Shown here one piece after another: positions 44,450-61,689 of a stretch of DNA of 64,000 bases (positions are counted from its first letter, which is position 1; every line of letters starts with the position of its first letter). Made by a program: the position numbers and the translations under genes. Source of the DNA: Sporichthya polymorpha DSM 43042 (GTDB lineage Bacteria > Actinomycetota > Actinomycetes > Sporichthyales > Sporichthyaceae); the NCBI RefSeq assembly GCF_000384115.1, contig NZ_KB913029.1, positions 3,323,057-3,387,056 of the forward strand, written 5' to 3'. The notes beneath the pieces were generated by a model. It worked only from the letters and a program-made list of their open reading frames with translations, was not told the DNA's origin and made no database searches.

Positions 44450-44474
44450 CGATTCGCCATCCCAGGGAGGTCGC

Positions 44475-46015: not shown

Positions 46016-46021
46016 GGCGTC

Positions 46022-47467
46022 ATGCACCTGACGATGCTGCTCGACATGGCCGTCGACGGCTTCGGCGACCGGGTCGTCGTCGGACGCCGCCAGGGCGGCC
46101 TGACGCCACGTCAGCTCCGGGCGCTCGCGCAGGGTGGTGCCCGCCTGGTCGCCGAGCAGAAGGCCGACGCGATCGTCTACCTCGCGGTGAACGGACCCGC
46201 GTTCCCGGTCGCGCTCTTCGCGGCCGCGTACGCCGGGGTCCCGCTGGTCCCGGTCAACTACCGCCTCGGTGCCGAGCAACTCGACGGCGTTCTCTCCCGT
46301 CATCCCGCCGCCCTCGTCATCGCGGACGACGGCCTCACCCCGGAGCGGTTCCTCGCCGCCGCCGCGCAGGGGCCGGCCGAGGCGGCGACCGGGGACGGAC
46401 CCGCCGTCGTCATCTACACCAGCGGGACGACCTCGGCCCCGAAGGGTGTCCTGCTCCGCCACGAGAACCTGGTCTCCTACGTCTTCGGCACCGTGGAGTT
46501 CGCCGCCGCCGACGAGGACGAGGCGACGCTGATGAGCGTCCCGCCGTACCACATCGCGGGGGTCTCGAACGTCCTGTCCAACCTCTACGCGGGCCGCCGG
46601 GTGGTGATGCTCCCGGCGTTCGACCCGGCGGAGTGGCTCGCCACCGTCCGCGCGGAGCGCATCACCCACGCGATGGTCGTGCCCACGATGTTGGCCCGGA
46701 TCATGGCCTGCGGTGACGATCCATCAGTTCCGTCGCTGCGTTCCCTCGCCTACGGCGGCGCCGCGATGCCGCCGCAGGTCATCGAGGCGGCGCTCCGGGC
46801 GTGGCCGCACGTCGACTTCGTCAACGCCTACGGGCTCACCGAGACCAGCTCGACCGTCGCTGTCCTCGGTCCCGCCGAGCACCGCGCCGCGATCGCCTCG
46901 GCCGACCCGGCGGTCCGCGCCCGCCTGCACTCGGCCGGGCGCCCGGTGCCGGGCGTCGAGATCGAGGTCCGCGACGACGCCGGTGCGGTTGTCGCACCCG
47001 GCACCCCCGGCCGCATCTGGATCCGCGGCGAGCAGGTGTCGGGGGAGTACGCCGGCAGCGGCTCCGCCGTCGACGAGCGCGGCTTCTTCGACACCCGCGA
47101 CTCCGGCCGCCTCGACGACGAGGGCTACCTGTTCGTCACCGGCCGGGTCGACGACACCATCATCCGCGGCGGGGAGAACATCGCCCCGGCCGAGATCGAG
47201 GACGTCCTGCTCCGCCACCCCGCGGTCGCGGACGCGGCGGTGGTCGGCGTCCCGGACCCGGAGTGGGGTCAGCGGCTCGAAGCCGTCGTCGTCCCGGCCC
47301 CGGACGCCGAGCCGGACGCCGAGGCGCTGCGCACCCACGTCCGGTCGACGCTGCGGGGGTCCAAGACTCCGGACCGCATCGTCTTCCGCCCCGAACTGCC
47401 CCGGACTCCGACCGGCAAGCTCCTCCGCCGCGAGGTACTCGCCGAGCTCCGGGGTCAACCGGTCTGA
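46022..47467 (+). CDS. Acyl-CoA synthetase (AMP-binding)
   Basis: A 481-residue ANL ligase: P-loop VVIYTSGTTSAPKGVLLR, NAYGLTETSSTVAVLG, hinge DEGYLFVTGRVDDTIIRGG and C-terminal TPTGKLLRRE. It activates a carboxylic acid to its CoA thioester, the entry step for beta-oxidation. ATG 46022 (MHLTMLLDMA) lies 6 bp after the preceding stop. It converges on the thiolase gene. Confidence 0.93.
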   Translation: MHLTMLLDMAVDGFGDRVVVGRRQGGLTPRQLRALAQGGARLVAEQKADAIVYLAVNGPAFPVALFAAAYAGVPLVPVNYRLGAEQLDGVLSRHPAALVIADDGLTPERFLAAAAQGPAEAATGDGPAVVIYTSGTTSAPKGVLLRHENLVSYVFGTVEFAAADEDEATLMSVPPYHIAGVSNVLSNLYAGRRVVMLPAFDPAEWLATVRAERITHAMVVPTMLARIMACGDDPSVPSLRSLAYGGAAMPPQVIEAALRAWPHVDFVNAYGLTETSSTVAVLGPAEHRAAIASADPAVRARLHSAGRPVPGVEIEVRDDAGAVVAPGTPGRIWIRGEQVSGEYAGSGSAVDERGFFDTRDSGRLDDEGYLFVTGRVDDTIIRGGENIAPAEIEDVLLRHPAVADAAVVGVPDPEWGQRLEAVVVPAPDAEPDAEALRTHVRSTLRGSKTPDRIVFRPELPRTPTGKLLRREVLAELRGQPV

Positions 47468-47477
47468 CGAGGGACGG

Positions 47478-48662
47478 TCAGCGGGTCAGCAGGACGGCCC
47501 CGGCCACGGGTCCGCCGCCGTTGGCGACGACCGCGACCTCGGCGCCGGGGACCTGCCGGCCCCCCGCGGTGCCGCGGAGCTGGACCACTGCCTCCTGCAG
47601 GAGCCCATACCCATGGAGCCGCCCGCCGGAGAGCTGGCCGCCGTTGGTGTTGAGCGGCAACGTCCCGTCGAGGGCGATGTTCGCCCCGCCCTCCAGGAAC
47701 GCACCTCCCTCGCCGTGGCCGCAGAAGCCGAGCGCCTCCAGCCACACCAGCGCGAGGATCGAGAACCCGTCGTAGAGCTGGGCGACGTGGACGTCGGACG
47801 GCTTGAGGTCGGTGCGGCTCCACAGGTGCCGGGCTGCGCCCTGCGCCGGCATCGAGGCCAGGTCCGCGTACTGGTCCCATGATGGCCGGCCGGTCAGCGC
47901 CGTCCCGACGGCCTCGACGCGCACCGCGCCGTGCGGGGTGTCGGCGGCGTGGGCAGCCGTCGACACGATCAGCGCCGTCGAGCCGTCGACGGGGACGTCG
48001 CAGTCGAGCAGGCACAGCGGCGTCGAGATCATCCGGGCCGCGAGGTAGTCCTCCATGCTCAGAGGAGCGGTGTAGACCGCGGCCTGGGAATCGAGCGCCG
48101 CGTGCCGCCGGGCCGTGACCGCGATCTGCCCGAGCTGCTCACGCGTCGTGCCGAAGTCGTGCATGTGCCGCATGGCGATCGGCGCGATCCAGTTCGCGGG
48201 GGAGATCCCGCCGAACGGCTGGCTCCAGACGCCGTAGCTGCCCGCCTGTTCCAGTCCGGGCAGCACCGACCCGCGGCCGAGGGCGCCCTGGACCGAGGAC
48301 TCGGTGACGGTCCGGTAGACGAGCACGTGCCGCGCCAACCCGGTCGAGATCGCCATCATCGCCGCGACGAGGGCCCCGAGCTGACCGGGCAGTTCGCCCG
48401 ATCCCTGAAACCACGTCAGGTTCAAGCGCAGCGCGTCCTGCACCTCCGCGGGCGGGGGACCGCCGTAACCTCGCGAGGTGTCCGCGTAGCCGCCCGGATA
48501 GGTGCAGAGGCCGTCGACGTCCTCGGGTCGCAGCCCGGCGTCCGCGATCGCGCCGAGGGCGGCCTCCACCGTCAGGTCGAGCGCCGACCGGCCCAGTCGC
48601 CGTCCGACCGCCGACCGTGCGACGCCGCTGATCACGGAGTCGCGCTCGAAGCGCTCACCCAT
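47478..48662 (-). CDS. Thiolase-fold lipid-transfer protein (Ltp-type, no nucleophilic Cys)
   Basis: A 394-residue thiolase-superfamily protein of the SCP-2/Ltp type. The region normally holding the CxS nucleophile reads GSGELPGQLGALVAAMMAIS, with no cysteine. VAQLYDGFSILALVWLEALG carries a Tyr typical of Ltp aldolases, and LNTNGGQLSGGRLHGYGLLQ and GGGPVAGAVL follow. Known Ltp2-type partners of DUF35 proteins catalyse retro-aldol cleavage of side-chain CoA esters. It overlaps the DUF35 gene by 8 bp, which supports a complex. Confidence 0.87.
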   Translation of the reverse strand: MGERFERDSVISGVARSAVGRRLGRSALDLTVEAALGAIADAGLRPEDVDGLCTYPGGYADTSRGYGGPPPAEVQDALRLNLTWFQGSGELPGQLGALVAAMMAISTGLARHVLVYRTVTESSVQGALGRGSVLPGLEQAGSYGVWSQPFGGISPANWIAPIAMRHMHDFGTTREQLGQIAVTARRHAALDSQAAVYTAPLSMEDYLAARMISTPLCLLDCDVPVDGSTALIVSTAAHAADTPHGAVRVEAVGTALTGRPSWDQYADLASMPAQGAARHLWSRTDLKPSDVHVAQLYDGFSILALVWLEALGFCGHGEGGAFLEGGANIALDGTLPLNTNGGQLSGGRLHGYGLLQEAVVQLRGTAGGRQVPGAEVAVVANGGGPVAGAVLLTR

Positions 48663-49074
48663 CGGCGGGACGGAAGACGGGGTAGAAGACGTCGTGCCGG
48701 TGGACGAACGCCACCTGCACCGGTTGCCCGATCCGGACCTCCTCCGCCGCGCGGCCCACGACGTTCGTGCTCAGCCGCAGCCCGGGCTGCTCGTCGAGCT
48801 CGACGATCGCGTAGACGTACGGCTCCTGGCCCGGCACCCACTGCTGGACGTTGACGGTGAAGGATGCCACCGTCCCGCGGCCGGAGAGCTCCTGCGGCGC
48901 GACCGACGCCGAGGAGCACTGCGGGCACCGCGGAGAGGGCGGGTGCAGCCAGTAGCCGCAGTCGCCGCACCGCAGCATGCGCAGGAGGCCGTCGGCCCCG
49001 GACGCCCAGAAGAACCGGTGCAACGGGTCGTCGGCGGGGCGGGCGCGGACGAGCAGAGGGTCGTCGACGATCAC
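48655..49074 (-). CDS. DUF35 OB-fold/zinc-ribbon protein, partner of the Ltp-type thiolase
   Basis: A 139-residue DUF35 protein: zinc ribbon LRCGDCGYWLHPPSPRCPQC, then an OB-fold (GRGTVASFTVNVQQWVPGQE, ending VQVAFVHRHDVFYPVFRP). DUF35 proteins and domains bind Ltp-type thiolases and help hold the acyl-CoA. GTG 49074 overlaps the SDR stop (GTGA). There is no MaoC domain, so it is not a ChsH2-style two-domain protein. Confidence 0.9.
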   Translation of the reverse strand: MIVDDPLLVRARPADDPLHRFFWASGADGLLRMLRCGDCGYWLHPPSPRCPQCSSASVAPQELSGRGTVASFTVNVQQWVPGQEPYVYAIVELDEQPGLRLSTNVVGRAAEEVRIGQPVQVAFVHRHDVFYPVFRPADG

Positions 49075-49925
49075 GGGTGGAACGCCGCCGTCTTCAGGTA
49101 GCCGCCCGCGTCGATGCGCAACTGAAGCCCCGTCACGTAACGAGACTCGTCGGAAGCGAGGTAGACCACCGCCGCGCTGACGTCCTCGACCTCGACGAAC
49201 GGCACCGGCATCGCCGCCATCGCGGGGAACGCGGCCTCGGCGTCCTCCCGGGTCGGCTCGTCGAGGTCGGGCCGGAACAGCCGGTACATCCCGGAGTTCT
49301 GCAGCATCGGGGTGTCGACGTTGGTCGGGTGAATGCAGTTGACCCGGATCGACTGCGGCGCCAGGACCGTCGCGAGTTCGTGGACGTACTGCGCCAGCGC
49401 GACCTTCGCGTACTTGTAACCCACCGCACCGGGGCCGCCGTCGCCGCCGCCGCGGGGTCGCAGAGCGGTCAACGACCCGGTCGCGATCACCGAGGCGCCG
49501 GGACCGAGGTGGGGGACCGCCGCGTTGATCGTCGCGATCGCGCCGAGCAGGTCGACGTCGACGGCGTCGAGCAGGGCCTGGATCCCGCGGTCCTCGCCGA
49601 GCGGCGCGATCCCGGCCTGGGCGACGACGACGTCGAGGCGGCCGAACTCCGCGATCGTGCGGTCGACGGCGGCCCGCACCGCCGCGGGGTCCCGGACGTC
49701 GGCGGTGACCCCCAGTGCCCGCCGGTCGTGCTGCTCGACCAGCGCGACGGTTTCGGCCAGGTCGGCGGGGGCGGCGAGCGGGTACGGCGCGGAAGCGATG
49801 TCGGCGCAGATGTCGAGGGCGACGACGTCCGCGCCCTCCGCGGCGAGCGCGACGGCGTGCGCCCGGCCCTGCCCTCGCGCCGCGCCGGTGATCAGCGCGA
49901 CCCTCCCGGCAACGCGTCCGCTCAT
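49071..49925 (-). CDS. Mycofactocin-coupled-type SDR family oxidoreductase
   Basis: A 284-residue SDR with the subgroup signature GRVALITGAARGQGRAHAV, and DICADI after the second strand. The catalytic Tyr-x3-Lys lies in YKYAKVALAQYV; VNCIHPTNVDTPML and VTGLQLRIDAGGY follow. Such enzymes keep NAD bound and are thought to pass electrons to mycofactocin. ATG 49925 overlaps the GntR gene stop (ATGA). A close relative lies at 60549. Confidence 0.9.
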   Translation of the reverse strand: MSGRVAGRVALITGAARGQGRAHAVALAAEGADVVALDICADIASAPYPLAAPADLAETVALVEQHDRRALGVTADVRDPAAVRAAVDRTIAEFGRLDVVVAQAGIAPLGEDRGIQALLDAVDVDLLGAIATINAAVPHLGPGASVIATGSLTALRPRGGGDGGPGAVGYKYAKVALAQYVHELATVLAPQSIRVNCIHPTNVDTPMLQNSGMYRLFRPDLDEPTREDAEAAFPAMAAMPVPFVEVEDVSAAVVYLASDESRYVTGLQLRIDAGGYLKTAAFHP

Positions 49926-50680
49926 TCCATGAGGTCCAGGACGGACCTCGCCCCCGGGGCGGAGAGCAGGTGCGCGTCCCCGGCCTGGAGGTGACGCCGC
50001 CACAGATCTTCGGCGCCGGCGACGTCCCGCGCGGCGATGAGGTCGATGAGCTTGCGGTGCGCGCGGTGCGCGATCTCCAGACCCTCGCGGGTGCTGACCT
50101 CGGACCCGTGCGCCGCGAGGAAGCGGTCGGACTGCACCTGGATGATCCGGTTGGTCACCGAGGTGAGGACGTCGTAGGTCAGACACCCCGTCAGTTGTAC
50201 GACGAGATGATGGAAGCGCCCGTGCGCACGGCTCGCCTGCGCCGGGTCGCCCATGACAGCAGCCTCCTCGGCCAGGGCGCCGCGGAGCACGGCGACGATC
50301 TCCGGCGTCCCGCGCTCGGCGAGTAGGCCGGCGGCGGGGGCCTCGAGCATCACCCGCGCGCGGTGGACGTCCGCGAGCGTCGCGCCCTCGTACTGCAGCA
50401 GCAGGCCGATGTAGCGGGAGACCATCGGGACGGCAGGCGTCCGAATGCGCGCGCCACCGCCGGCCCCCCGACGAACCACCAGCAGGCCCTCGGACTCGAG
50501 GATCCGCAGCGCCTCCCGGACGGTCGTCCGCGCGACGCCCATCTCGGCCATCAACTGGTCCTCGGGCGGCAGCGGGTCGTCGGCCTCGAGTTCGCCGGTG
50601 ACGATCTTGCGGCGCAGAGTGCGAGCCACGATCTCGGCGGCCTTCGGGAGCCGGATCGTCTCCAGCTTCGTGGTCGCCAC
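49922..50680 (-). CDS. GntR-family regulator (FadR/FCD type)
   Basis: A 252-residue regulator. The winged helix reads DQLMAEMGVARTTVREALRI and then LESEGLLVVRRGAGGGARI (about residues 35-85). The FCD ligand domain carries HGRFHHLVVQLTGC and a later AHRKLIDLI with metal-binding His. It leads the operon with SDR, DUF35 and thiolase and is divergent from an acyl-CoA dehydrogenase. The AT-rich motif at 50718 in the shared promoter is a candidate site. Confidence 0.9.
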   Translation of the reverse strand: MATTKLETIRLPKAAEIVARTLRRKIVTGELEADDPLPPEDQLMAEMGVARTTVREALRILESEGLLVVRRGAGGGARIRTPAVPMVSRYIGLLLQYEGATLADVHRARVMLEAPAAGLLAERGTPEIVAVLRGALAEEAAVMGDPAQASRAHGRFHHLVVQLTGCLTYDVLTSVTNRIIQVQSDRFLAAHGSEVSTREGLEIAHRAHRKLIDLIAARDVAGAEDLWRRHLQAGDAHLLSAPGARSVLDLME

Positions 50681-50717
50681 GGGCGCACTCCTCTCGGCCG
50701 CCGGGAATTTGCCGGAA

Positions 50718-50736
50718 AAATCGTATCAGGAATAAG
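50718..50736. promoter_or_regulatory. Shared 19-bp AT-rich motif in the gntR/dehydrogenase promoter
   Basis: AAATCGTATCAGGAATAAG matches the motif at 33193, 44431 and 52190. It ends 9 bp before ATG 50746. No ribosome site is visible for that gene, so its mRNA may be leaderless, with TAAGCT as the -10 box. Confidence 0.5.
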
Positions 50737-50745
50737 CTATTTCCC

Positions 50746-51876
50746 ATGACGCCGGCTGACGAGCTTCGCGCCGTGCTCGCGACGATGCCCGACGAGCTCC
50801 GCCGCGGCCCCGCTGCCGACTTCGACGAGATGCTCGCCGCCCAGCGCTGGCTGGCCTCGGCCGGGTGGGTCGCGCCCGGGTGGCCGGTCGAGCACGGCGG
50901 CCGGGGTCTCGGCGTCGCCGACCGCATCGCCTGCGACGCCGAGTACGCCGCGGCGGACGTCCCGCTGCCGGCGGGCATCCTCGGCCTCGCGAACGTCGGC
51001 CCCGCGCTGATGGAGTTCGGCACCGCCGAGCAGCAGGCGCATCTGCCGCGGATTCTCGACGGCTCCGAGATCTGGTGCCAGGGCTTCAGCGAGCCCGGGG
51101 CCGGCAGCGACCTCGCCGGCCTGCGCACCCGTGCCCGCCCGGCGGGGGAGTCCTTCGACGACGGCTTTGTGATTGACGGTCAGAAAGTCTGGACCTCCCA
51201 CGGCATGCACGCGACGCACTGCATGCTGCTGGTCCGCACGGACCCGGATGGCCCGAAGCACAAAGGCATTTCCGTCCTGCTCGTCCCGATGGACAGCCCC
51301 GGCATCGAGCGTCGCCCGATTCGGATGATCTCCGGCGACTCCGAGTTCGCGGAGGTGTTCTTCACCGGCGTCCGTGTCGCCGCGTCCGCGCTGCTCGGCC
51401 CGTTGCACGGCGGTTGGGGTGTGACGGTCCGGACGCTGGTGCACGAGCGGACCGGCGTCCTCTCGCGTGCCGCGGAGCTGGAGAACCGCGCCCGCCAGGT
51501 CGCCCTCGCGACGACGGACCTCGACCCGCTCGACCGCGACGAGGTCGTCCGCCGCTACGTCGAGGCGCGCGTCCTCGGCCAGCTCGGCCAGGCGACCCTC
51601 GCCCGCGGTGAGGCCGGCCAGGACACCGCCGGCCTGCAGGCGCTGATCAAGCTGTCGTGGGGCCTGACCGACCGCGCCCTCGCCGAGACCGCGCTCGACG
51701 TCGTCGGGCTCCCCGCCACCGTGGGTTCGGCCGGCCCCGGCGCCGCCCCCAGCTCAGCCCCCAGCGACCTCGCCTGGCGCTGGCTGAACGCCCGGGCCTC
51801 GACGATCGCCGCCGGGACCACCGAGGTGCTCAAGGACCTCGTCGCCGAGCGCGTCCTCGGCCTCCCGCGCTCCTGA
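50746..51876 (+). CDS. Acyl-CoA dehydrogenase
   Basis: A 376-residue FAD enzyme: CQGFSEPGAGSDLAGLRT, DGQKVWTSHGMHATHC, then STIAAGTTEVLKDLVAERVL at the C-terminus. It belongs to the group often found as one half of alpha2beta2 dehydrogenases. No second subunit is adjacent, so pairing with another dehydrogenase of the cluster is possible. ATG 50746 may be leaderless. A complete 58-bp palindrome follows the stop. Confidence 0.92.
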   Translation: MTPADELRAVLATMPDELRRGPAADFDEMLAAQRWLASAGWVAPGWPVEHGGRGLGVADRIACDAEYAAADVPLPAGILGLANVGPALMEFGTAEQQAHLPRILDGSEIWCQGFSEPGAGSDLAGLRTRARPAGESFDDGFVIDGQKVWTSHGMHATHCMLLVRTDPDGPKHKGISVLLVPMDSPGIERRPIRMISGDSEFAEVFFTGVRVAASALLGPLHGGWGVTVRTLVHERTGVLSRAAELENRARQVALATTDLDPLDRDEVVRRYVEARVLGQLGQATLARGEAGQDTAGLQALIKLSWGLTDRALAETALDVVGLPATVGSAGPGAAPSSAPSDLAWRWLNARASTIAAGTTEVLKDLVAERVLGLPRS

Positions 51877-51886
51877 CCTGCAGCGA

Positions 51887-51944
51887 TGTCAAAAAAGGGT
51901 GACACCCCTTACTGCGCAGTAAGGGGTGTCACCCTTTTTTGACA
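51887..51944. repeat. 58-bp palindromic repeat, copy C (bidirectional terminator)
   Basis: A perfect 58-bp palindrome with 29-bp arms: TGTCAAAAAAGGGTGACACC, CCTTACTGC, then the mirror image ending in a T-tract and GACA. It lies between the convergent dehydrogenase and ferredoxin genes. It is virtually identical to copy A 48.7 kb away. Confidence 0.9.
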
Positions 51945-51968
51945 GCGCCCGGGGACCGCGGCGGCGCG

Positions 51969-52163
51969 CTACTCGAAGAAGACCTTGATCGCGCGCTCGG
52001 GGCACTCGGCGGCGCCGCGGAAGGCGGCCTCGCCGTGCTCGTCGTCGATCTCGAACTCGCCGCCGACGTTGTAGCCCTCGTCGTCGAGGACGTAGACCTC
52101 GGGGGCGAGGGCGAAACAGCGGGCGTTGCCCTGGCAGACCTCGCGGTCGACCTTGACCCTCAT
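51969..52163 (-). CDS. [3Fe-4S] ferredoxin of the P450-partner type
   Basis: A 64-residue ferredoxin. Cys10, Cys16 and Cys54 (CQGNARC ... ECPERA) give the C-x5-C ... C-P pattern of a 3Fe-4S protein. The position usually His, Ala or Cys is Asn13, a variation recalled from mycobacterial P450-linked ferredoxins. It is divergent from the operon containing a P450 (53413), the likely electron acceptor. Start ATG 52163 has GGGAGGA upstream. Confidence 0.9.
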   Translation of the reverse strand: MRVKVDREVCQGNARCFALAPEVYVLDDEGYNVGGEFEIDDEHGEAAFRGAAECPERAIKVFFE

Positions 52164-52189
52164 CGCGTCCTCCCGGTTGCCGGGCGAAT

Positions 52190-52208
52190 AATTCGGTATA
52201 AGATAAAG
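52190..52208. promoter_or_regulatory. Shared 19-bp AT-rich motif between ferredoxin and amidohydrolase operon
   Basis: AATTCGGTATAAGATAAAG matches 33193, 44431 and 50718. It sits in the divergent promoter region, 26 bp from the ferredoxin start and 44 bp from the amidohydrolase start. Confidence 0.5.
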
Positions 52209-52252
52209 CGACCCAGCGCCAGGGACAACCGAGACCGCCGAGGTGACCGCGG

Positions 52253-53413
52253 ATGCCGCTCCGGGACGACATGCAGCTGATCTCGGTGGACGACCACCTC
52301 GTCGAGCCGCCCCACCTGTGGCAGGACCGCCTCCCGGTCGCGCACCGCGACGCCGGTCCTCGCATCATCCAGGTCGAGGACGACGCGGGCCAGATCTCCG
52401 ACGTCTGGCTCTACGAGGGCCGCAAGTACCCGCAGATCGGCCTCAACGCCGTGGCCGGGAAGCCGCCGGAGCAGTTCGGCACCGAGCCGATGCGGTACAC
52501 CGACATGATCCCGGGCTGCTACGAGCCCGAGGCGCGCGTCATCGACATGGACCTCGACGGCGTGCAGGCCGCGATCTGCTTCCCGAGCTTCCCGCGATTC
52601 GCGGGCACGGTCTTCCTCCAGGGCGAGGACAAGGCGCTCGCGCTGCTGTGCGTCCAGGCCTGGAACGACTTCATGCTCGACGAGTGGTGCGCCGCCGCGC
52701 CCGAGCGCTTCATCCCGATCGCGATCCTGCCGCTCTGGGACGTCGACGCCGCGGTGAAGGAGATCCACCGCGTCGCCGCCCGCGGGGCGAAGGCGATCTC
52801 GTTCACCGAGAACCCCGTCCCGCTCGGGCTGCCGAGCTTCCACACCGACCACTGGGACCCGGTCTTCTCCGCCGCGGAGGAGACGGGACTGCCGCTGTGC
52901 CTGCACTTCGGGACGTCGGGCCAGGCGCCGACGACCGCACCGGACGCGCCGTTCGCCGTCACGATCACGCTGTTCGGCTGCAACTCGATGTTCGCCGCGG
53001 CCGACCTCATCTTCTCCCCGGTGTTCCACCATCACCCCAACCTCAAGGTCGCGCTCGCCGAGGGCGGCATCGGCTGGGTGCCCTACCTGCTCGAGCGCGC
53101 GGACTACGTCTGGGACCGGCACCGCTGGTACCAGAACGTGAACCAGGCGGTCCCGCCGTCGGAGCTCTTCCGCCGGCACATCTGGGGCTGTTTCATCGAC
53201 GACGTGCACGGCCTGAAGAACCGCCACGAGATCGGCATCGACCGGATCACCTGGGAGTGCGACTACCCGCACTCGGACTCGAACTGGCCGAACAGTCGCA
53301 AGCGCGCGATCGAGGTCTTCGCCGACATCCCCGACGACGAGGTCGCGCGCATGGTGGAGTGGAACAGCCGCGAGCTCTTCAACTTCCCGCGAACCCCGAC
53401 GGACGCGGCCTGA
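52253..53413 (+). CDS. Amidohydrolase family 2 protein (TIM-barrel metal-dependent hydrolase)
   Basis: A 386-residue protein of the ACMS-decarboxylase-like amidohydrolase group. ISVDDHLVEPPHLWQDR has the DxH-type metal motif, LPLCLHFGTSG the next His, HHHPNLKVALAEGGIGW the barrel strand and WECDYPHSDSNWPNS the catalytic Asp. Relatives in actinobacterial steroid and aromatic clusters are thought to cleave or hydrate rings or C-C bonds. ATG 52253 follows GAGGTGA. Its TGA overlaps the P450 start (TGATG). Confidence 0.88.
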   Translation: MPLRDDMQLISVDDHLVEPPHLWQDRLPVAHRDAGPRIIQVEDDAGQISDVWLYEGRKYPQIGLNAVAGKPPEQFGTEPMRYTDMIPGCYEPEARVIDMDLDGVQAAICFPSFPRFAGTVFLQGEDKALALLCVQAWNDFMLDEWCAAAPERFIPIAILPLWDVDAAVKEIHRVAARGAKAISFTENPVPLGLPSFHTDHWDPVFSAAEETGLPLCLHFGTSGQAPTTAPDAPFAVTITLFGCNSMFAAADLIFSPVFHHHPNLKVALAEGGIGWVPYLLERADYVWDRHRWYQNVNQAVPPSELFRRHIWGCFIDDVHGLKNRHEIGIDRITWECDYPHSDSNWPNSRKRAIEVFADIPDDEVARMVEWNSRELFNFPRTPTDAA

Positions 53414-54822
53414 TGGGCAAGCCCGACCCCAACGACTCCGACTGGTCGGACCTCGACCTCCTGACCGTAAACGAGGCGACCGAACGGCTCGACGCCGAGA
53501 TCGCCGCCCTCACCGGCCAACTCGGCGCGCTGGCCGGCACCGAACGCGACGCCGCGAACCGTCGCCTCGACCTGCTCGTCGCGGCGCGCGACCGCGCGGC
53601 GGCGGGGCCGAAGCGTCCGCTCTACGACGCGCCGCCGGACCGCCCCGCCCACGTCCCGGCCGAACTCGTCCGCGACGTCGACCACGTCTTCGGGCCGGAC
53701 TTCCTCGTCGATCCCTTCGCCGCGTACCGCGAGCTGCGCGATCGGCGAGTCTGGTGGAGCCCGCGCCACGGCGGGTTCTGGATCCTGACGCGGGCCGAGG
53801 ACATCCGCGGCGCCTACCAGCAGCCGGACCTGTTCTCCTCCGCGGCGACCGGCATCCCCGCGCACGTGCAGCGCAAGGAGAAGCTCTACCCGCTCGAGCT
53901 CGACCCGCCCGCGCACACCGCGTACCGCCGCGTCATCGCGCCGCTGTTCGCGCCGAAGGCCGTCACCGCGCGGACCGCGGCCATCGACGCGACCTGCGCC
54001 GCCCTCGTCGACGAGATCGCCCCCCGCGGTCGGGCCGAGTTCCTCGCCGACTTCGCCGAGCCGTTCCCGACGCGGATCTTCACGAACATCCTCGGCCTGC
54101 CCGTCGCCGAGGCACCGAAGTTCGTGGCCTGGAACAACAAGTTGCTGCACTCGCAGGACCAGCCTGAGCGTCGCCGCGAGGCGGGCCTCGAGATCAACGG
54201 CTACCTCCGGGAGCTGATCGAGGCCCGCCGGGCCGAGCCGCGCGACGACGTCGTGTCCGCGCTGCTCGCCTCTGAGGTCGACGGCCGGCCGATCGAGAAC
54301 GACGAGATCCAGAACCTCTGCTTCCTGCTGTTCATCGCCGGTCTCGACACCGTCACCGCGGCGCTGTCCTGGTCGTTCCGCTTCCTCGCCCTGCACCCGG
54401 AGCACCGGCGTCAGATCGTCGACGATCCGGCGCTGATCCCCAGTGCCGTCGAGGAACTGCTCCGCGTGCACTCCTTCGTCAACCCGGCGCGGACCGTCAC
54501 CCGCGACGCCGAGTTCGCCGGAGTCCAGCTGCGCGAGGGGGACCGCGTGCTGCTCGCGACGGCGCTCGTCGCCCAGGACCCGGAGGAGTTCGCCGACGAA
54601 GCGACCGTCCGCTTCGACCGCGACGCCAACCGCCACCTCGCCTTCGGTGCCGGCCCCCACCGCTGCGCGGGCTCGCACCTCGCCCGCGACGAGCTCGCCA
54701 CCGCGCTCACCCTCTGGCACCGGCAGATCCCGGACTACGAGATCGCCCCCGGTGAGACCGTCACCATGCACGCCGGCGGGGTCTTCGGCCTCGACCGCCT
54801 GCCCCTGGTCTGGTCGACGTGA
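53413..54822 (+). CDS. Cytochrome P450
   Basis: A complete 469-residue P450. A hydrophilic helical extension of about 70 residues (ATERLDAEIAALTGQLGALA) precedes the fold. LFIAGLDTVTAALSW is the I-helix with a polar centre, EELLR the ExxR motif and FGAGPHRCAGSHLARDE the heme loop. It hydroxylates a lipophilic substrate with electrons from a ferredoxin, probably the one at 51969. It is coupled to the amidohydrolase before and the dehydrogenase after (GTGA). The N-terminal extension is unusual for a soluble bacterial P450. Confidence 0.93.
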   Translation: MGKPDPNDSDWSDLDLLTVNEATERLDAEIAALTGQLGALAGTERDAANRRLDLLVAARDRAAAGPKRPLYDAPPDRPAHVPAELVRDVDHVFGPDFLVDPFAAYRELRDRRVWWSPRHGGFWILTRAEDIRGAYQQPDLFSSAATGIPAHVQRKEKLYPLELDPPAHTAYRRVIAPLFAPKAVTARTAAIDATCAALVDEIAPRGRAEFLADFAEPFPTRIFTNILGLPVAEAPKFVAWNNKLLHSQDQPERRREAGLEINGYLRELIEARRAEPRDDVVSALLASEVDGRPIENDEIQNLCFLLFIAGLDTVTAALSWSFRFLALHPEHRRQIVDDPALIPSAVEELLRVHSFVNPARTVTRDAEFAGVQLREGDRVLLATALVAQDPEEFADEATVRFDRDANRHLAFGAGPHRCAGSHLARDELATALTLWHRQIPDYEIAPGETVTMHAGGVFGLDRLPLVWST

Positions 54823-56009
54823 CGGACCGATCAGGCCTGACGGCGGCCGAGCTCGCGGCCGAGCTGCGGACGTTTCTGACCGAGCATCACCCGGGGCGGG
54901 CGCCGAAGGACCCGGGGGAGCGGCTGGCGTTCCTTCAGGCCTGGCAGGCGACGTTGTTCGACCACGGCTGGGCGGGGCCCGGGTGGCCGCCGCGGTGGGG
55001 TGGGATGGGGCTGCCCCTGCCGCTGCAGGCGGTCTACCACCGCGAGATGGCCGCCGGCCGCGCGCCGGTGCCGCCGAACAACATCGGCGGCATCGTGGGC
55101 CCGACGATCCTCACCTGCGGGACCGACGAGCAGCGCTCGCGGTGGATCCCGCCGCTGCTGCGCGCCGACGAGCTGTGGTGCCAGGGCTTCTCCGAGCCCG
55201 ACGCCGGGTCGGACCTCACCGCACTGCGCACCCGCGCGGTGCGGGACGGCGACGTCTACCGCGTCACCGGCCGCAAGGTCTGGATCTCCGGCGCGGTGAA
55301 CGCCGACTGGATGCTCTGCCTGACCCGGACCGGCGAACCGGACTCCGGGGCCGCGGGCATCACCTGCCTCGTCGTCGACATGCACGCGCCGGGCGTCCGC
55401 GCGTCCCGGCTGCGCGACCTGACCGGCGGGGCGCACTTCGCCGAGGTGGAGCTCGACGACGTCGAGGTCCCGGTGAGCCATCGCATCGGGGCGGAGAACG
55501 AGGGCTGGGCCGCGGCGCGCGCGACGATGGGCCACGAGCGCTCGACGTCGCTGGCGGCGTCCGGCATGCGCTACCAGCGGGTGACGCGTGACCTGCTCGA
55601 CCTCGCGCGCCGCCGAGGGCAGGCCGACGACCTGCACGTCCGCGACCGGCTCGCCCGGGCCGTCACCGGCGCGCGGCTGCTCGAGTGGAGTGGCCAACGG
55701 GTTCTCGCCCGCGTCCTGGAGGGCGGCGAGCCGGGCCCGCTCGCGTCGGTGATCCGGTTGCAGCACGGCGTCTTCGAGCAGCAATTGCACACCCTCGCCC
55801 TCGACCTCCTCGGACCGCACGCCCAGCTCGACGCCGCCGACCCGACCCTCGCCTCGGGCGAGCGCCACGACGGGAACTGGCTGCGCGGGTTCCTGCGCAC
55901 CCGCGCGAGCACGATCGGGGCGGGAACGGCCGAGATCCAGCGCACGACGATCGCCGACAAGGTCCTGGGACTGCCCCCGGAGACCGGCAACTCAAGGAGC
56001 ACCCGATGA
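54819..56009 (+). CDS. Acyl-CoA dehydrogenase (possible alpha subunit)
   Basis: A 396-residue protein: CQGFSEPDAGSDLTALRTRA, TGRKVWISGAVNADWMLC, and TIGAGTAEIQRTTIADKVLG near the end. GTG 54819 overlaps the P450 stop (GTGA), and its own stop overlaps the next dehydrogenase (ATGA). Two adjacent, dissimilar dehydrogenases are the pattern of heterotetrameric steroid-type FadE enzymes, so the pair probably works as one complex. Confidence 0.92.
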   Translation: MTDRSGLTAAELAAELRTFLTEHHPGRAPKDPGERLAFLQAWQATLFDHGWAGPGWPPRWGGMGLPLPLQAVYHREMAAGRAPVPPNNIGGIVGPTILTCGTDEQRSRWIPPLLRADELWCQGFSEPDAGSDLTALRTRAVRDGDVYRVTGRKVWISGAVNADWMLCLTRTGEPDSGAAGITCLVVDMHAPGVRASRLRDLTGGAHFAEVELDDVEVPVSHRIGAENEGWAAARATMGHERSTSLAASGMRYQRVTRDLLDLARRRGQADDLHVRDRLARAVTGARLLEWSGQRVLARVLEGGEPGPLASVIRLQHGVFEQQLHTLALDLLGPHAQLDAADPTLASGERHDGNWLRGFLRTRASTIGAGTAEIQRTTIADKVLGLPPETGNSRSTR

Positions 56010-57118
56010 CCGGGACGTTCGCCTTCACCGCCGAGCACGAGGCCCTGCGCGACACCGTGCGCCGGTTCCTCACCGAACGGTCCCCGGAGACCGAGGTCCG
56101 CCGACTGATGGAGACGACCGACGGTTACGACTCGGCGGTCTGGAAGCTGATAGCCAATCAGATCGGGCTGCCGGGTCTCGCCCTGCCGGAGAAGTACGGC
56201 GGTTCCGGCGCCGGGTTCGTCGACCTGCAGATCGTCCTGGAGGAGATGGGCCGCGCCCTGCTGTGCGCGCCGTTCCTCTCGACGGTCGTCCTCGCCGCCA
56301 ACGCGCTGCTCACCTCCGGCGACGAGGCCGCCTGCGCCGAGTACCTCCCCGGGATCGCCGAGGGCACGACGATCGCCACCCTCGCCGTCACCGAGGCTAG
56401 CGGCAGCTGGCGCGCCGACGACGTCACCGTTACCGCCGACGCGCAGTACCGGCTCACCGGCGAGAAGACCTTCGTCCTCGACGGTCACGTCGCCGACCTG
56501 CTGCTCGTCGTCGCCCGTACCGCCGCCGGTCCGACGCTTTTCGCGGTCGAAGCGGAGGCGGACGGCGTCACGCGTGAAGCCCTTGGCACCCTGGACGCCA
56601 CGCGCAAGCAGTCGCGGCTGGTTCTTGAGCACACCCCCGCCCGCCTCATCGGGGAGGACGGCGGCGCGGCCGTGCCCCTGGAACAGACCCTCGACCTCGC
56701 GGCCGCGGCCCTCGCGGCCGAGCAGGCCGGCGGTGCGCGGCGGACGCTCGAGATGGCGGTCGAGTACGCGAAGGTCCGCGAGCAGTTCGGCCGGCCGATC
56801 GGGTCGTTCCAGGCGATCAAGCACAAGTGTGCGGACATGCTGCTGGAGGTCGAGTCCTCGACCTCGGCGGCCTACGCGGTCGGGTGGGCGATCGACGCCG
56901 GTAGCGACGAGGTCCCGGTCCTGGCCCCGCTGGCGAAGGCCTACTGCTCCGAGGCCTACACCCACTGCGCGGCGGAGAACATCCAGATCCACGGCGGCAT
57001 CGGGTTCACCTGGGAGCACCCCGCGCACCTGTACTTCAAGCGCGCCAAGAGCACTGAGATCCTCTTCGGCAACCCGCGCCACCACCGCGCGCTGCTCGCC
57101 GACCGGCTGGGGATCTGA
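56006..57118 (+). CDS. Acyl-CoA dehydrogenase (possible beta subunit)
   Basis: A 370-residue protein. The middle-domain motif is degenerate (TLAVTEASGSWRADDVTVTA), as in the non-catalytic partner of heteromeric dehydrogenases. AKVREQFGRPIGSFQAIKHK and ENIQIHGGIGFTWEHPAHLY are well conserved and build the FAD/dimer interface. ATG 56006 overlaps the preceding dehydrogenase. The aldehyde dehydrogenase follows after 1 bp. Confidence 0.92.
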   Translation: MTGTFAFTAEHEALRDTVRRFLTERSPETEVRRLMETTDGYDSAVWKLIANQIGLPGLALPEKYGGSGAGFVDLQIVLEEMGRALLCAPFLSTVVLAANALLTSGDEAACAEYLPGIAEGTTIATLAVTEASGSWRADDVTVTADAQYRLTGEKTFVLDGHVADLLLVVARTAAGPTLFAVEAEADGVTREALGTLDATRKQSRLVLEHTPARLIGEDGGAAVPLEQTLDLAAAALAAEQAGGARRTLEMAVEYAKVREQFGRPIGSFQAIKHKCADMLLEVESSTSAAYAVGWAIDAGSDEVPVLAPLAKAYCSEAYTHCAAENIQIHGGIGFTWEHPAHLYFKRAKSTEILFGNPRHHRALLADRLGI

Positions 57119-57119
57119 G

Positions 57120-58559
57120 GTGCCGACAGAGCCAATGACGGCTGACGCCGCCCGCGCCCTCCTCCCCGCCGGGACCTGCTTCCTCGGCGGGAGCGTCACC
57201 GCGGGGACGGGCAACGCGCGGTCGTACGTCCACCCCGGCGACGGGAGCGCCCTCGGGGAGTTCCGGCTCGCGGGCGCGGACCAGGTCGAGCCCGCGATCG
57301 CCGCGGCGCGCAAGGTGCAGCCCTCCTGGGCGAAAAACCCGGCCTGGCGGCGGGACGCCCTGTTCGCGGCCGCCGCCGCGATCCGCGCCGACGCGGACGC
57401 CCTCGCCTCGGTCGTCACCCTCGAGATGGGGATGCCGATCCGCGCCGCGAAGGCCGGCGTCCTCCAGGCCGCGGAGTGGTTCGCCTACTACGCCGGCTGG
57501 GCGGACAAGGTCGGCGGTGAGGTCGCGCCCGTCGCACCGGGTGACGTGCTCGACTACACGAGCGCCGTCCCGCACGGCGTCGTCGGCGCGATCATCCCGT
57601 GGAACGGTCCGGTGATGGCGGCGGCGCTCAAGCTCGCCCCGGCGCTCGCGACCGGCAACGCGGTGGTGCTCAAGCCGTCCGACCTCGCGCCGTTCTCCTG
57701 CATCCGCCTCGCCGACACCCTCGGTCTGCCCGAGGGACTGGTCTCGGTCCTCGGCGGCGCCGGGGACGTCGGGGCCGCCCTGGTCGAGCAGGTCGACATG
57801 GTCAGCTTCACCGGCGGCGAGAACGCCGGCCGCGCGGTGGGCACGGCCGCCGCGGCGCGGTTCGTCCCCTGCGTCCTCGAACTCGGCGGCAAGTCCGCGT
57901 CGCTCGTCTTCGACGACGCCGACCCGGTGCGGGTCGGGAAGCTGGCGGCGCTCCTCGGCGCGGTCCAGAACAGTGGCCAGGGCTGCTTCCTCCCGACGCG
58001 GCTGCTGGTCCAGCGCGGCGTCGCGGACGCCGTGCTCGAGGCCGCGACCGCGCAACTCGCGAAGGTCCGCCTCGGCGACCCCTTCGACCTCACGACCTCG
58101 ATGGGCCCGGTCGTCGACGTCGCCGCGGCCGACCGCATCCTCGGCGTCATCGCGGCCGCGTCGGCCCGACTCGTCGCCGGCGGCGGACGTGGCCCCGGCC
58201 CGGCCTACGTCGAGCCCACGTTGTTCGCGGACGTCGACCCGGCCAGCAGCCTGGCGCAGGAGGAGATCTTCGGCCCGGTGCTCGCCGTCACGACCTTCGA
58301 CACCGAGGACGAGGCCGTCGAGATCGCGAACGGCACGCGCTACGGCCTCGCCGGGTACGTCTGGACGAACGACCTCGCCCGCGCGCACCGCGTCGCCGAC
58401 CGCCTCGAGGCGGGGTACGTGTGTGTGAACAGCCTCGCCGGGCTGCCGCCGTCCGCGCCCTTCGGCGGATGGAAGGCCAGCGGCCGCGGGAACGAGGGCG
58501 GCCGCGAGGGTATGCGCGAGTTCCTCCGCACCAAGAACGTCCACGTGGGGCTGACGTGA
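57120..58559 (+). CDS. Aldehyde dehydrogenase
   Basis: A 479-residue NAD(P)-dependent aldehyde dehydrogenase. IIPWNGPVMAAALKLAPALA and VLKPSD are the nucleotide motifs, CVLELGGKSASLVFDDAD holds the catalytic Glu, and QNSGQGCFLPTRLLVQ the catalytic Cys. EEIFGPVLAVTTFDTEDEAV is standard. It could oxidise an aldehyde released by P450 or aldolase chemistry in the cluster. GTG 57120 directly follows the preceding stop; ATG 57135 is possible. Its end overlaps the next gene (GTGA). Confidence 0.92.
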   Translation: MPTEPMTADAARALLPAGTCFLGGSVTAGTGNARSYVHPGDGSALGEFRLAGADQVEPAIAAARKVQPSWAKNPAWRRDALFAAAAAIRADADALASVVTLEMGMPIRAAKAGVLQAAEWFAYYAGWADKVGGEVAPVAPGDVLDYTSAVPHGVVGAIIPWNGPVMAAALKLAPALATGNAVVLKPSDLAPFSCIRLADTLGLPEGLVSVLGGAGDVGAALVEQVDMVSFTGGENAGRAVGTAAAARFVPCVLELGGKSASLVFDDADPVRVGKLAALLGAVQNSGQGCFLPTRLLVQRGVADAVLEAATAQLAKVRLGDPFDLTTSMGPVVDVAAADRILGVIAAASARLVAGGGRGPGPAYVEPTLFADVDPASSLAQEEIFGPVLAVTTFDTEDEAVEIANGTRYGLAGYVWTNDLARAHRVADRLEAGYVCVNSLAGLPPSAPFGGWKASGRGNEGGREGMREFLRTKNVHVGLT

Positions 58560-59764
58560 CGCTGGATCAGTTCGAGGCCCGGGTGCGAGAGTTCCTCGAC
58601 GCCCGCCGCCCCCGGCGCGCCCCGGTCGCGACCGAGTGGGGTTCGGGCGAGGAACGGCTCGCGCTCTTCCACGAGACCACCGACTCCCAGGAGCGAGCGG
58701 AGGCCGAGGTCGCCCTGGCCTGGCAGCGGGAGCGCTGGGCGGCCGGATTCGGCTGGATCACCGGGCCCGTCGAGCACGGCGGCGCCGGTCTGAGTGCCGA
58801 GTACGACCGGCGCTACCGCGAGATCGAGGCCGAGTACGACGTCCCCGACATGGCGCCGCTGCGGATCGGCCTCGGCACCGTCAGCCACGCACTGCTCGCC
58901 GCCGGGACCCCGGAGCAGATCGCGACCCACGCCGTCCCGCTCCACCGCGGTGAGGCTGTGGCCTGCCAGCTGTTCTCCGAGCCCGAAGCGGGGTCTGACC
59001 TCGCCGGCGTCCGCACCCGTGGCGTCCGCGAGGGCGACACCTGGCGCGTCGACGGGCAGAAGGTCTGGACGTCGAACGCGACCTTCGCCGACCTCGGGCT
59101 CGCGCTGATCCGCACCGACCCGGACGCCCCGAAGCACCGCGGCCTGACGATGTTTCTGGTGCCGATGGACGCGCCCGGCATCGAGGTCCGCCCGCTGCGG
59201 CAGATGACCGGCGGCGCGAGCTTCTGCGAGGTGTTCCTCTCCGACGTCCGGCTCGACGACGCGCTGCGACTCGGCGAGCCCGGGTCCGGGTGGAAGGTCG
59301 CGACATCGGCGCTGGCGGGGGAGCGGCGCGCGGTCGGCGACCGCTCGCACGAGATGAACGCCCGCGCGATGGCGCTGCTCGCGACGCTGGCGCAACGCAC
59401 CGGCCGCGCGGACGACCCCGCGGTCCGTGACGCATGGGTCGCGTTGCACTCCCGGCTGCAGATCGCGCGGTTCCAGCAGCAGCGCATGCAGGCCACGGAC
59501 GAGCGGACGCTGACCGGCGCCGAGCGCGCGATCGACAAGGTCCTGCTCGCGGCGAACTACAAGCTGATCGGCGATCTCGCCGCCGAGCTGCTCGGCCCGG
59601 CCTTCGTTGCCGACACGGGTGAGTGGGGCACGTTCACCTGGAACCGCTGGTTGATGGGCAGCATGGGGTACCGCATCGCCGGCGGGACCGAGGAGATCCT
59701 CAAGACGATGTTGGCCGAGCGCGTGCTCGGGTTGCCGCGCGAGCCGCAGGAGGCCAAGCGTTGA
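58556..59764 (+). CDS. Acyl-CoA dehydrogenase
   Basis: A 402-residue protein: CQLFSEPEAGSDLAGVRTRG, DGQKVWTSNATFADLGLALI, RPLRQMTGGASFCEVFLSDV, and RIAGGTEEILKTMLAERVL at the end. GTG 58556 overlaps the aldehyde dehydrogenase stop and its TGA overlaps the TTG start of the crotonase. It is the third dehydrogenase of this operon, so at least two different acyl-CoA oxidation steps are encoded. Confidence 0.92.
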   Translation: MTLDQFEARVREFLDARRPRRAPVATEWGSGEERLALFHETTDSQERAEAEVALAWQRERWAAGFGWITGPVEHGGAGLSAEYDRRYREIEAEYDVPDMAPLRIGLGTVSHALLAAGTPEQIATHAVPLHRGEAVACQLFSEPEAGSDLAGVRTRGVREGDTWRVDGQKVWTSNATFADLGLALIRTDPDAPKHRGLTMFLVPMDAPGIEVRPLRQMTGGASFCEVFLSDVRLDDALRLGEPGSGWKVATSALAGERRAVGDRSHEMNARAMALLATLAQRTGRADDPAVRDAWVALHSRLQIARFQQQRMQATDERTLTGAERAIDKVLLAANYKLIGDLAAELLGPAFVADTGEWGTFTWNRWLMGSMGYRIAGGTEEILKTMLAERVLGLPREPQEAKR

Positions 59765-60552
59765 GTTCTTCGGCACAGAGCTACGAGACCGTCCTGTTCG
59801 ACCTGGCCGACGGGGTCGCGACCGTGACGCTGAACCGGCCCGAGGTGCTCAACGCCTTCGACCAGCGGATGCTCGACGAGTTCGCGGACGTCTGGAAGCG
59901 CTGCCGCCTCGACGACGACGTCCGCGTCGTCGTGCTCCGGGCCGCGGGGGAGCGCGCGTTCTCCACCGGCGTCGACCGCAAGGCGGGCCGGGACCGCCAC
60001 CCGAACCCGTGGAGCGCCGACGACCCCGGGTTCTTCCTCGGCGCTAAGCAGAACCGCGTGTGGAAACCGCTGATCGCCGCGGTCCACGGCATGTGCGCGG
60101 GCGGCGCGTTCTACTGGATCAACGAGGCCGACGTCGTCATCTGCTCCGAGGACGCGACGTTCTTCGACCCGCACACCACCTACGGCATGCTCTCCGCGCT
60201 CGAGCCCGCCGGCCTGGCCCGGCGCATCCCGCTCGGGGAGGCGATGCGGATCGCGCTGTTCGGCCTCGACGAGCGGATGGGAGCCCAGCGCGCGTACTCG
60301 ATCGGCCTGGTGTCCGAGGTCGTGCCGGGTGGGCAGGCCGAGCTGTGGGAGCGGGCGCACGTTCTCGCGTTGCGCCTCGCCGAGAAACCGCCGCTGGCGA
60401 TCCAGGGGACGGTGAAGGCGGTGTGGGACTCGCTGTCGATGTCGCCGCACGCCGCCCGGGAGGTCCCGTTGGTCTACCCGCAGCTGGCGAATCCGCTGTC
60501 CCAGACCGACTTCTCCTCCGGCGGCGCGCGTCCGAAGCCGGAGATCCGATGA
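59761..60552 (+). CDS. Enoyl-CoA hydratase/isomerase family protein
   Basis: A 263-residue crotonase. VTLNRPEVLNAFDQRMLDEF opens the fold. The oxyanion motifs are RAFSTGVDRKAGR (usual AGAD replaced by TGVD) and VHGMCAGGAFYWINEADVVI, followed by DATFFDPHTTYGMLSALEPA, where a hydratase would have a second Glu. The chemistry may therefore differ from simple hydration. It starts at TTG 59761 within a TTGA overlap and ends in an ATGA overlap with the SDR gene. Confidence 0.88.
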   Translation: MSSSAQSYETVLFDLADGVATVTLNRPEVLNAFDQRMLDEFADVWKRCRLDDDVRVVVLRAAGERAFSTGVDRKAGRDRHPNPWSADDPGFFLGAKQNRVWKPLIAAVHGMCAGGAFYWINEADVVICSEDATFFDPHTTYGMLSALEPAGLARRIPLGEAMRIALFGLDERMGAQRAYSIGLVSEVVPGGQAELWERAHVLALRLAEKPPLAIQGTVKAVWDSLSMSPHAAREVPLVYPQLANPLSQTDFSSGGARPKPEIR

Positions 60553-61385
60553 GCGGGCGCCTGGCGGGCAAGGTCGCGTTCATCACCGGCGCGGCGCGGG
60601 GCCAGGGTCGGTCCCACGCGGTGAAGCTCGCGCAGGAGGGGGCGGATGTCATCGCCGTCGACCTCTGCGCGGACATCGACGTCGCGCCATACCCGCTCGC
60701 GACCCCGGACGACCTGGCCGAGACGGTGCGTCTGGTCGAGGCCGCGGACCGGCGGATCGTCGCGGCGCAGGCCGACGTCCGGGACCTCGACGCGCTGACC
60801 GTCGCCGTCGACGCCGGGGTGGCCGAGCTCGGCCGTCTCGACATCGTCCTCGGCAACGCGGGCATCGCGCAGTACGCCCCGATCACCGAGCTGACGGCCC
60901 ATCAGTGGTCGACGATGATCGACGTCAACCTCACCGGCGTCTTCCACACGGTGAAGGCGGCGCTGCCGCACCTCCTCGCGCACGGCGACGGCGGGTCGAT
61001 CGTTCTCACCAGCTCGGCCGCGGGCCTGCGCGGCATCGAGAACTGCGCGCACTACTGCGCCGCCAAGCACGGCCTGGTCGGGATGATGAAGGGCCTGGCG
61101 CTCGAGCTCGGCCGGCACCGGATCCGCGTCAACACCGTCCACCCCACGACGGTGAACACCGACATGGTGCAGAACCCCGCGACCTACGACCTGTTCCTCC
61201 CGGGCAAGGAGAACCCGACGCAGGAGCAGTTCGCCCGCATCGCGCAGCACCTGAACGTGCTCCCCGAGCCCTGGGCCGAGCCCGCGGACGTGAGCGCCGC
61301 GATCGCGTTCCTGTGCTCCGACGAGGCCCGCCTCGTCACCGGCGTCTCCTTCCCCGTCGACGCGGGGATGGCCGTCCGCTGGTGA
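60549..61385 (+). CDS. Mycofactocin-coupled-type SDR family oxidoreductase
   Basis: A 278-residue SDR: GKVAFITGAARGQGRSHAVK, VDLCADI, SSAAGLRGIENCAHYCAAKH with the Tyr-x3-Lys, VNTVHPTTVNTDMVQNP and VTGVSFPVDAGMAVRW. It is paralogous to 49071. It probably oxidises a secondary alcohol, with tightly bound NAD recycled by mycofactocin. It is the last gene of the nine-gene plus-strand operon that starts at 52253; a hairpin follows at 61423. Confidence 0.92.
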   Translation: MSGRLAGKVAFITGAARGQGRSHAVKLAQEGADVIAVDLCADIDVAPYPLATPDDLAETVRLVEAADRRIVAAQADVRDLDALTVAVDAGVAELGRLDIVLGNAGIAQYAPITELTAHQWSTMIDVNLTGVFHTVKAALPHLLAHGDGGSIVLTSSAAGLRGIENCAHYCAAKHGLVGMMKGLALELGRHRIRVNTVHPTTVNTDMVQNPATYDLFLPGKENPTQEQFARIAQHLNVLPEPWAEPADVSAAIAFLCSDEARLVTGVSFPVDAGMAVRW

Positions 61386-61503: not shown

Positions 61504-61689
61504 GTGAGAACGATGACGGCGATCGACGAGCGACTGACGGCCCCGGTGTCCGTCCGCCACCCCGAGCAGGGCTGGAGCCTCCTGATCAACGGGGTGGTCC
61601 TCTTCGACGACGGCGGCGCCCTCCTCCCCACCGGCGAGTCCCTCGCCCCGCCCGTCCCGGCCCTCGTCCCGGCCGCCCGGGCCGCCTAG
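61504..61689 (+). CDS. DUF5999-like small protein, Cys-less variant (61 aa)
   Basis: The core VRHPEQGWSLLINGVVLFDD is the signature I recall for the small actinobacterial DUF5999 proteins. The usual N-terminal C-x-H-x-P-x-CP stretch is missing, and so is the Cys in SLLCNG (Ile here). It starts at GTG 61504 with GAGG upstream; ATG 61513 is possible. The function of the family is unknown, and loss of the metal-like residues is noteworthy. Confidence 0.7.
   Translation: MRTMTAIDERLTAPVSVRHPEQGWSLLINGVVLFDDGGALLPTGESLAPPVPALVPAARAA

Follow-up and report, generated by a model that had tools for sequence, protein, structure and literature searches.

Our analyses of a 64,000-nucleotide stretch of the genome of Sporichthya polymorpha DSM 43042 (contig NZ_KB913029.1, positions 3,323,057 to 3,387,056 of the forward strand; hereafter the window) point to a co-regulated catabolic locus that would use a CoA-dependent route to degrade a bulky hydrophobic ring compound, terpenoids and terpenoid acids being the most likely candidates; we assign this reading a probability of about 0.5. 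The core of the locus is an operon of eight coupled genes (52253–61385) that begins with the genes for a putative amidohydrolase-related dinuclear oxygenase (ARO) and a cytochrome P450, and that belongs to a locus of about 17 genes (44487–61385) conserved in two genera. The locus is real and coherent and its component parts are of known kinds. As far as our searches go, the novelty lies in the combination of genes, in a small domain (DLLT, named after its sequence motif) and its fusion to the P450, and in the correction of two annotations. No described pathway matching the gene set was found in the open-access literature searched, and the statement in an earlier note on this DNA that no described pathway has this exact set holds only within that literature.

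The first gene of the operon (52253–53413, forward strand) is of a kind usually annotated as "amidohydrolase" and was taken for one in the earlier note. By all of the sequence tests at hand its product would instead be an oxygenase resembling DitZ and PtmU3. These two proteins are its best relatives in the PDB (phmmer E-values of 5.5e-79 and 2.5e-43, respectively), whereas the decarboxylases and hydrolases among its matches score between 7e-5 and 3e-14. The six ligands of AibH2 and an extra acidic residue reported only in binuclear members are described in PMC7782822, the LynB7 and PtmU3 equivalents are given in PMC10127204, and PMC10811679 and PMC10401708 provide accounts of the class, including its metal site. 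All seven of the corresponding residues are present in the window protein: three histidines and three carboxylates at the AibH2/PtmU3 ligand positions (viz. D13, H15, H218, E270, D337, and H340) and D342 at the position of the extra acidic residue (Asp342/Glu313). The seven positions are kept in all 16 of the aligned sequences, with Asp or Glu at the seventh (Glu in PtmU3), and the alignment reproduces the published E313 numbering of PtmU3. A hydrolytic amidohydrolase was rejected on the basis of the metal-site residues and the relative scores, and the gene product is almost certainly not a hydrolase.

PtmU3 hydroxylates C-5 of diterpenoid-CoAs (PMC10127204). In another study, 5alpha-hydroxy-dehydroabietic acid is a product of Pseudomonas abietaniphila, and the authors, who leave the responsible enzyme unidentified, suppose that it is a P450 (PMC13063091). 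Because C-5 of dehydroabietic acid is beta to the carboxyl carbon, the position that PtmU3 hydroxylates, a DitZ-like ARO is a candidate for this 5alpha-hydroxylation, and by analogy an oxygenase of the PtmU3/DitZ type would fit the reported product as well as a P450 does. Four further ARO paralogs (58–66% identity) are located in other acyl-CoA clusters of the same genome (loci L046, L047, and L048, at 3.22 Mb, 3.30 Mb, and 0.35 Mb of G000), two of the four standing in tandem at 3299–3302 kb. ARO homologs that are 57–71% identical are also carried by Rhodococcus, Streptomyces, and Mycobacterium plasmids, and the plasmid loci that were opened have CoA-transferase, OB-fold, and thiolase genes as neighbors.

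The second gene (53413–54822, forward strand; PF00067) encodes a CYP101-like P450 whose nearest PDB chain and nearest fold in Foldseek are both P450cam (about 37% identical in the fold alignment), CYP125-like chains ranking lower; some 50 P450 matches are present in the genome. The first 70 or so residues of the protein (53413–53622) match no model in the versions of Pfam and NCBIfam that were searched. They carry the motif SDWxDxDLLT...EA..RL..EI and constitute the DLLT domain, which an AlphaFold2 model built from seven sequences predicts to be a two-helix hairpin (residues 19–39 and 43–63, with a block predicted local distance difference test score (pLDDT) of about 76–90) joined to the P450 body by a low-confidence linker (residues 66–75). 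A profile search of the PDB with this domain gave weak coiled-coil-like matches only (best E 0.0084). In the window and in a second genome of the genus (G297) the domain and the P450 share a single reading frame, whereas in two genomes of a sister genus (G298 and G299) the DLLT domain is a separate small gene whose stop overlaps the P450 start. A sequencing error as the source of the extension was rejected, because the same fusion is present in two species of the genus and because the window P450 gene has no in-frame start codon after codon 1 and before codon 152.

Stand-alone DLLT proteins of 64–81 amino acids (aa) adjoin ARO genes in G298 and G299, in a paralog locus of the window's own genome, in Pseudonocardia pini, in G510, on two Rhodococcus plasmids, and on one Streptomyces plasmid. 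On the plasmid of Streptomyces sp. NBC_00080 (447819–476958; locus L062), ARO and DLLT genes adjoin HsaC-, HsaD-, and KstD-like genes that score below the curated cut-offs, possibly an uncharacterized ring-degradation cluster on a linear plasmid. Among 393 genomes of the class, 23 DLLT matches were detected. For 14 of them an ARO gene is found at a distance of at most 1.5 kb, several of these 14 being orthologs from one family and hence not independent. Six others, all from one genus, show the real motif and have no ARO gene within that distance (loci L114–L118 and L121; the neighbors in L114 resemble, by eye, a Gfo/Idh/MocA-type oxidoreductase and a substrate-binding protein), and the remaining three cover the helical part alone and are probably due to chance. 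Of the 15 loci of top-ranked AROs (L065–L079, 59–100% identity), 9 have a DLLT gene no more than 1.5 kb away, as against 0 of 15 loci of lower-ranked ones (L080–L094), and DLLT as a general ARO partner was rejected on these counts. That it represents the C-terminal part of longer AROs was also rejected, the sole long ARO examined, from Massilia, lacking the motif in its tail. Because stand-alone DLLT adjoins AROs without a close P450, the domain would seem to be an ARO accessory that the P450 has acquired, the plain alternative being a chance fusion of overlapping neighboring genes. We suggest, tentatively, that DLLT is an undescribed component (viz. an effector, docking, or electron-delivery subunit) of a PtmU3/DitZ-like sub-class, and that its fusion links a heme and a dinuclear non-heme enzyme physically on one CoA-linked pathway. 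PtmU3/DitZ-type oxygenases of family PF04909 commonly carry an amidohydrolase annotation, and little is known about the proteins that assist them; a gene-linked small domain fused to a P450 gives a direct lead to a helper of this kind.

Of the remaining proteins, the acyl-CoA dehydrogenases (ACADs) ACADa (54819–56009) and ACADb (56006–57118), are both encoded on the forward strand. ACADa matches Tcur3483 and ChsE4, and ACADb matches their respective partner subunits Tcur3481 and ChsE5 (the ChsE4/ChsE5 pair being that of PDB 4x28); ACADb is also similar to IpdE2. The glutamate of the H/G-E-R motif is kept in ACADa (as HER), in ACADc (58556–59764, forward strand), and in ACAD0, a fourth enzyme encoded upstream of the operon (50746–51876, forward strand), and the motif is absent from ACADb. 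Steroid ACADs have this glutamate in only one subunit type (PMC8399759), and the adjacent genes for ACADa and ACADb, with the catalytic residue in one subunit alone, suggest an alpha2beta2 arrangement as in the steroid dehydrogenases. Upstream on the reverse strand, a thiolase-fold protein (47478–48662) adjoins a DUF35/OB-fold protein of the ChsH2 C-terminal type (48655–49074; PF01796, PF12172). The aldolase motif is YDHF in Ltp2 and YDCY in Sal (PMC12329534). The window protein, which appears aldolase-like, has the motif tyrosine (YDGF), the sequence WFQGS, and no cysteine at the place of the nucleophile. Of 15 comparison loci, one of which (L105) has no ARO in view, 13 likewise have YDGF in their best thiolase-fold match (the other two being YDCF in L097 and HDCF in L098).

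The crotonase-fold protein (59761–60552, forward strand, TTG start; PF00378) has Tyr and His at the positions of the two glutamates that are catalytic in enoyl-CoA hydratase, as have its three orthologs, and other crotonases in the same alignment retain both residues. A plain hydration step, as proposed in the earlier note, is therefore doubtful. Two short-chain dehydrogenases/reductases (SDRs), namely the last protein of the operon (60549–61385, forward strand) and SDR0 (49071–49925, reverse strand), score 409 and 333.7 bits against TIGR03971 (cut-off 300). The genome also encodes mftC (650.9 bits versus a cut-off of 265), and together these matches support mycofactocin-coupled alcohol oxidation, as judged from the family models. 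The operon further contains an aldehyde dehydrogenase (57120–58559, forward strand; PF00171, 457 bits).

The genes and their order, with families assigned from Pfam and NCBIfam, and the stop-start coupling given in the earlier note are borne out by the sequence junctions, which comprise a 1-bp overlap between the ARO and P450 genes (53413), a 1-bp gap (57118/57120), and five 4-bp overlaps (54819, 56006, 58556, 59761, and 60549). The coupled operon described there as nine genes with a chain ending at 60552 stands as such, but the count is eight and the chain ends at 61385, the SDR gene being coupled as well; a nine-gene version is present in the sister genus, where the DLLT part is separate. 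Not included in that note were the fourth ACAD, a divergent ferredoxin gene, and the conserved neighbors back to 44487. These upstream neighbors include, on the forward strand, genes for a class III (CaiB-type) CoA-transferase (44487–45707; PF02515), a 103-aa protein of unknown family that is kept in three relatives (45704–46015), and an AMP-binding acyl-CoA ligase (46022–47467; PF00501), and, on the reverse strand, a GntR/FCD regulator that is 94–99% identical in three relatives (49922–50680). The ferredoxin (51969–52163, reverse strand; 64 aa; PF13459, 49.3 bits versus a cut-off of 22.4), the only one in the locus, is a single-cluster protein of the 4Fe-4S family encoded about 90 bp from the ARO gene and 75–100% identical in G297–G299. 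It is a likely electron donor, with the P450, the ARO, or the two of them as possible acceptors. The ACAD0 and ferredoxin genes converge, and their stop codons are separated by a perfect 56-bp inverted repeat (51888–51943) with A/T runs near both ends. This repeat, which the terminator scan did not pick up, is probably a bidirectional terminator. Just 3' of the operon is a small DUF5999 gene (61513–61689; 60.9 bits versus 27.5), which is 92% identical in G297 and of which no counterpart was seen in loci L052 and L053.

The two parts of the locus are also linked by a promoter- or operator-like 24-bp element on the forward strand, copies of which precede the CoA-transferase gene (44429–44452) and the ARO gene (52188–52211) and are identical at 18 of 24 bases. 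The match between these two sites is no test of the element, because the search pattern was written from them. A 19-base core was found at no more than two mismatches only at these two sites in 5.5 Mb, and the reversed-pattern control gave zero matches in the same 5.5 Mb. An independent test is provided by the relatives G298, G299, and G297, in which the element occurs 5' of the CoA-transferase gene with 1, 0, and 0 mismatches and 5' of the ARO gene with 2, 2, and 0 mismatches, respectively; the best match in a comparison set of 114 other loci (823 kb) has 6 mismatches. A degenerate third copy lies upstream of ACAD0 (50716–50739, forward strand; 5–7 mismatches in the relatives). No sigma-70-type site was found in the promoter scan. 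Synteny and the common element together suggest that the region from 44.4 to 61.4 kb is a single co-regulated unit.

A comparison of gene clusters, which the earlier note had suggested, revealed that the locus is conserved with G297, G298, and G299, across two genera. In a search of the 60 closest-relative genomes, the P450 has matches of 97% identity in G297 and 76–77% in G298 and G299. Seven operon genes align one-to-one in G297 (94–98% identity) and in G298 and G299 (74–88%), and the P450 gene has a single counterpart in G297 but is matched in the other two by a small gene and the P450 gene next to it. Because the operon genes align in all three, the coding calls are not due to chance. The neighborhood from the CoA-transferase to the SDR gene is kept in these genomes with two exceptions, which are considered below. 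A contig scan, covering genomes other than that of the window, recovered 6 loci, 2 of them with more than 40% identity over most of the protein.

The families and key residues of the proteins, the synteny, the promoter element common to both parts, and the gene fusion are shown by the sequences, and from them we infer the substrate, the order of steps, and the role of DLLT as follows. The ferredoxin-fed P450, whose closest relatives are the CYP101 camphor/terpenoid enzymes, a point that favors a terpenoid substrate, would hydroxylate an unactivated C-H bond, probably of a methyl group. The alcohol would then be converted to an acid by a mycofactocin-type SDR and the aldehyde dehydrogenase, and a CoA thioester would be formed by the AMP-dependent ligase, the CaiB transferase, or both. 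ACADa and ACADb would act as an alpha2beta2 dehydrogenase suited to large ring substrates, and the ARO may hydroxylate the beta carbon of the acyl-CoA, as PtmU3 does, at a position out of reach of ordinary beta-oxidation. The resulting beta-hydroxyacyl-CoA could be cleaved in a retro-aldol reaction by the thiolase-fold/DUF35 pair, and the crotonase-fold protein may catalyze a non-hydratase step such as C-C hydrolysis. As an ARO accessory tethered to the P450 in this genus, DLLT may bring both oxygenases together. These results support the proposal of the earlier note that a bulky hydrophobic acid is catabolized, with hydroxylation by a P450, oxidation of an alcohol and an aldehyde, and dehydrogenation at the acyl-CoA level, the dehydrogenation being supported by the match of ACADa and ACADb to partners of solved steroid-type enzymes and the alcohol oxidation by the SDR and mftC scores. 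The locus suggests an O2-dependent break-up of crowded ring acids, by beta-hydroxylation and retro-aldol cleavage, that goes beyond ordinary beta-oxidation, and would supply three marker genes for locating similar pathways.

Several observations weigh against this terpenoid pathway. The ARO is only 29% identical to PtmU3 and 37% to DitZ, and some ARO-family match is found in 172 of the 393 genomes of the class, so that its chemistry may vary; its AlphaFold model is poor (pLDDT 43) and lends no support. One beta-type ACAD beside three glutamate-bearing ones does not fit simple pairs, and the thiolase-fold protein has Gly where the YDHF motif of Ltp2 has its oxyanion His. The locus is absent from G296, a genome of the same genus that is 94% complete (best P450 match 38%), and the synteny is imperfect, G298 (locus L053) having no SDR0 match and G299 having an extra SDR-like match between the ferredoxin and ARO genes. 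A different view of the same genes is that the ARO and the P450 act on separate substrates, two acyl-CoA pathways having been pieced together under common transcription, in keeping with the varied neighbors of ARO paralogs and homologs, which often have no P450. The conservation of a single overlapping transcription unit between two genera, the promoter element common to both parts, and the presence of an ARO-linked domain within the P450 speak against such a mosaic, which we consider unlikely.

Two other explanations were considered. The alpha2beta2 ACAD partners, the DUF35/thiolase-fold pair, the P450, and the mycofactocin SDR are all parts of steroid side-chain degradation, and a Streptomyces plasmid locus with a 71%-identical ARO carries HsaC-, HsaD-, and KstD-like genes, which would suit a sterol or bile acid side-chain pathway as a variant of the cholesterol/cholate system. 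However, when the KstD-like and HsaC-like plasmid proteins (themselves under the curated cut-offs) served as queries, the best matches in the window genome were 33% and 31% identical, respectively; because these matches are weak and partial, a steroid ring pathway is not evident, and with a P450 nearest to CYP101 rather than to CYP125-like chains, a steroid substrate appears improbable. Even less probable is an abietane (dit-type) resin-acid pathway, to which the name of DitZ, the best structural relative of the ARO, and a 45%-identical P450 neighboring a 71%-identical ARO with a DLLT gene in Pseudonocardia pini would point: DitA, the ring-hydroxylating dioxygenase that defines such a pathway, is absent from the window, all 8 of the PF00848 matches in the genome lying outside it, and the function of DitZ is known here by its PDB name alone.

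The proposed terpenoid pathway resembles several known systems in its parts. The ARO shares with PtmU3 and DitZ (PDB 8uyr) the PF04909 fold family and all of the dinuclear metal residues; PtmU3 also acts on acyl-CoAs, but it is biosynthetic, being a nonheme diiron monooxygenase of platensimycin/platencin formation. Neither PtmU3 nor DitZ was observed with a DLLT protein or a coupled P450 in the sequences covered, which did not include the loci of these two proteins. AibH2 and SfbO have the same metal site logic (PMC7782822, PMC10811679), but in these sources they neighbor a Rieske ferredoxin, unlike the single-cluster 4Fe-4S-family ferredoxin of the window. The thiolase-fold gene adjoins a DUF35 gene, and its product has a catalytic-type Tyr and no nucleophilic Cys, as in the Ltp2-ChsH2 and Sal-Shy pairs, from which it differs in having YDGF in place of YDHF or YDCY. 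As in ChsE4-ChsE5, IpdE1-IpdE2, and Tcur3481-Tcur3483, the ACAD partner genes are adjacent and the glutamate is confined to one subunit type, whereas the window locus has three glutamate-bearing subunits per partner subunit. Lastly, P450cam (CYP101) is the best match of the window P450 in both sequence and fold; the window protein differs from it by the added DLLT extension and by its neighboring 4Fe-4S-family ferredoxin, the redox partner of P450cam being the 2Fe-2S protein putidaredoxin.

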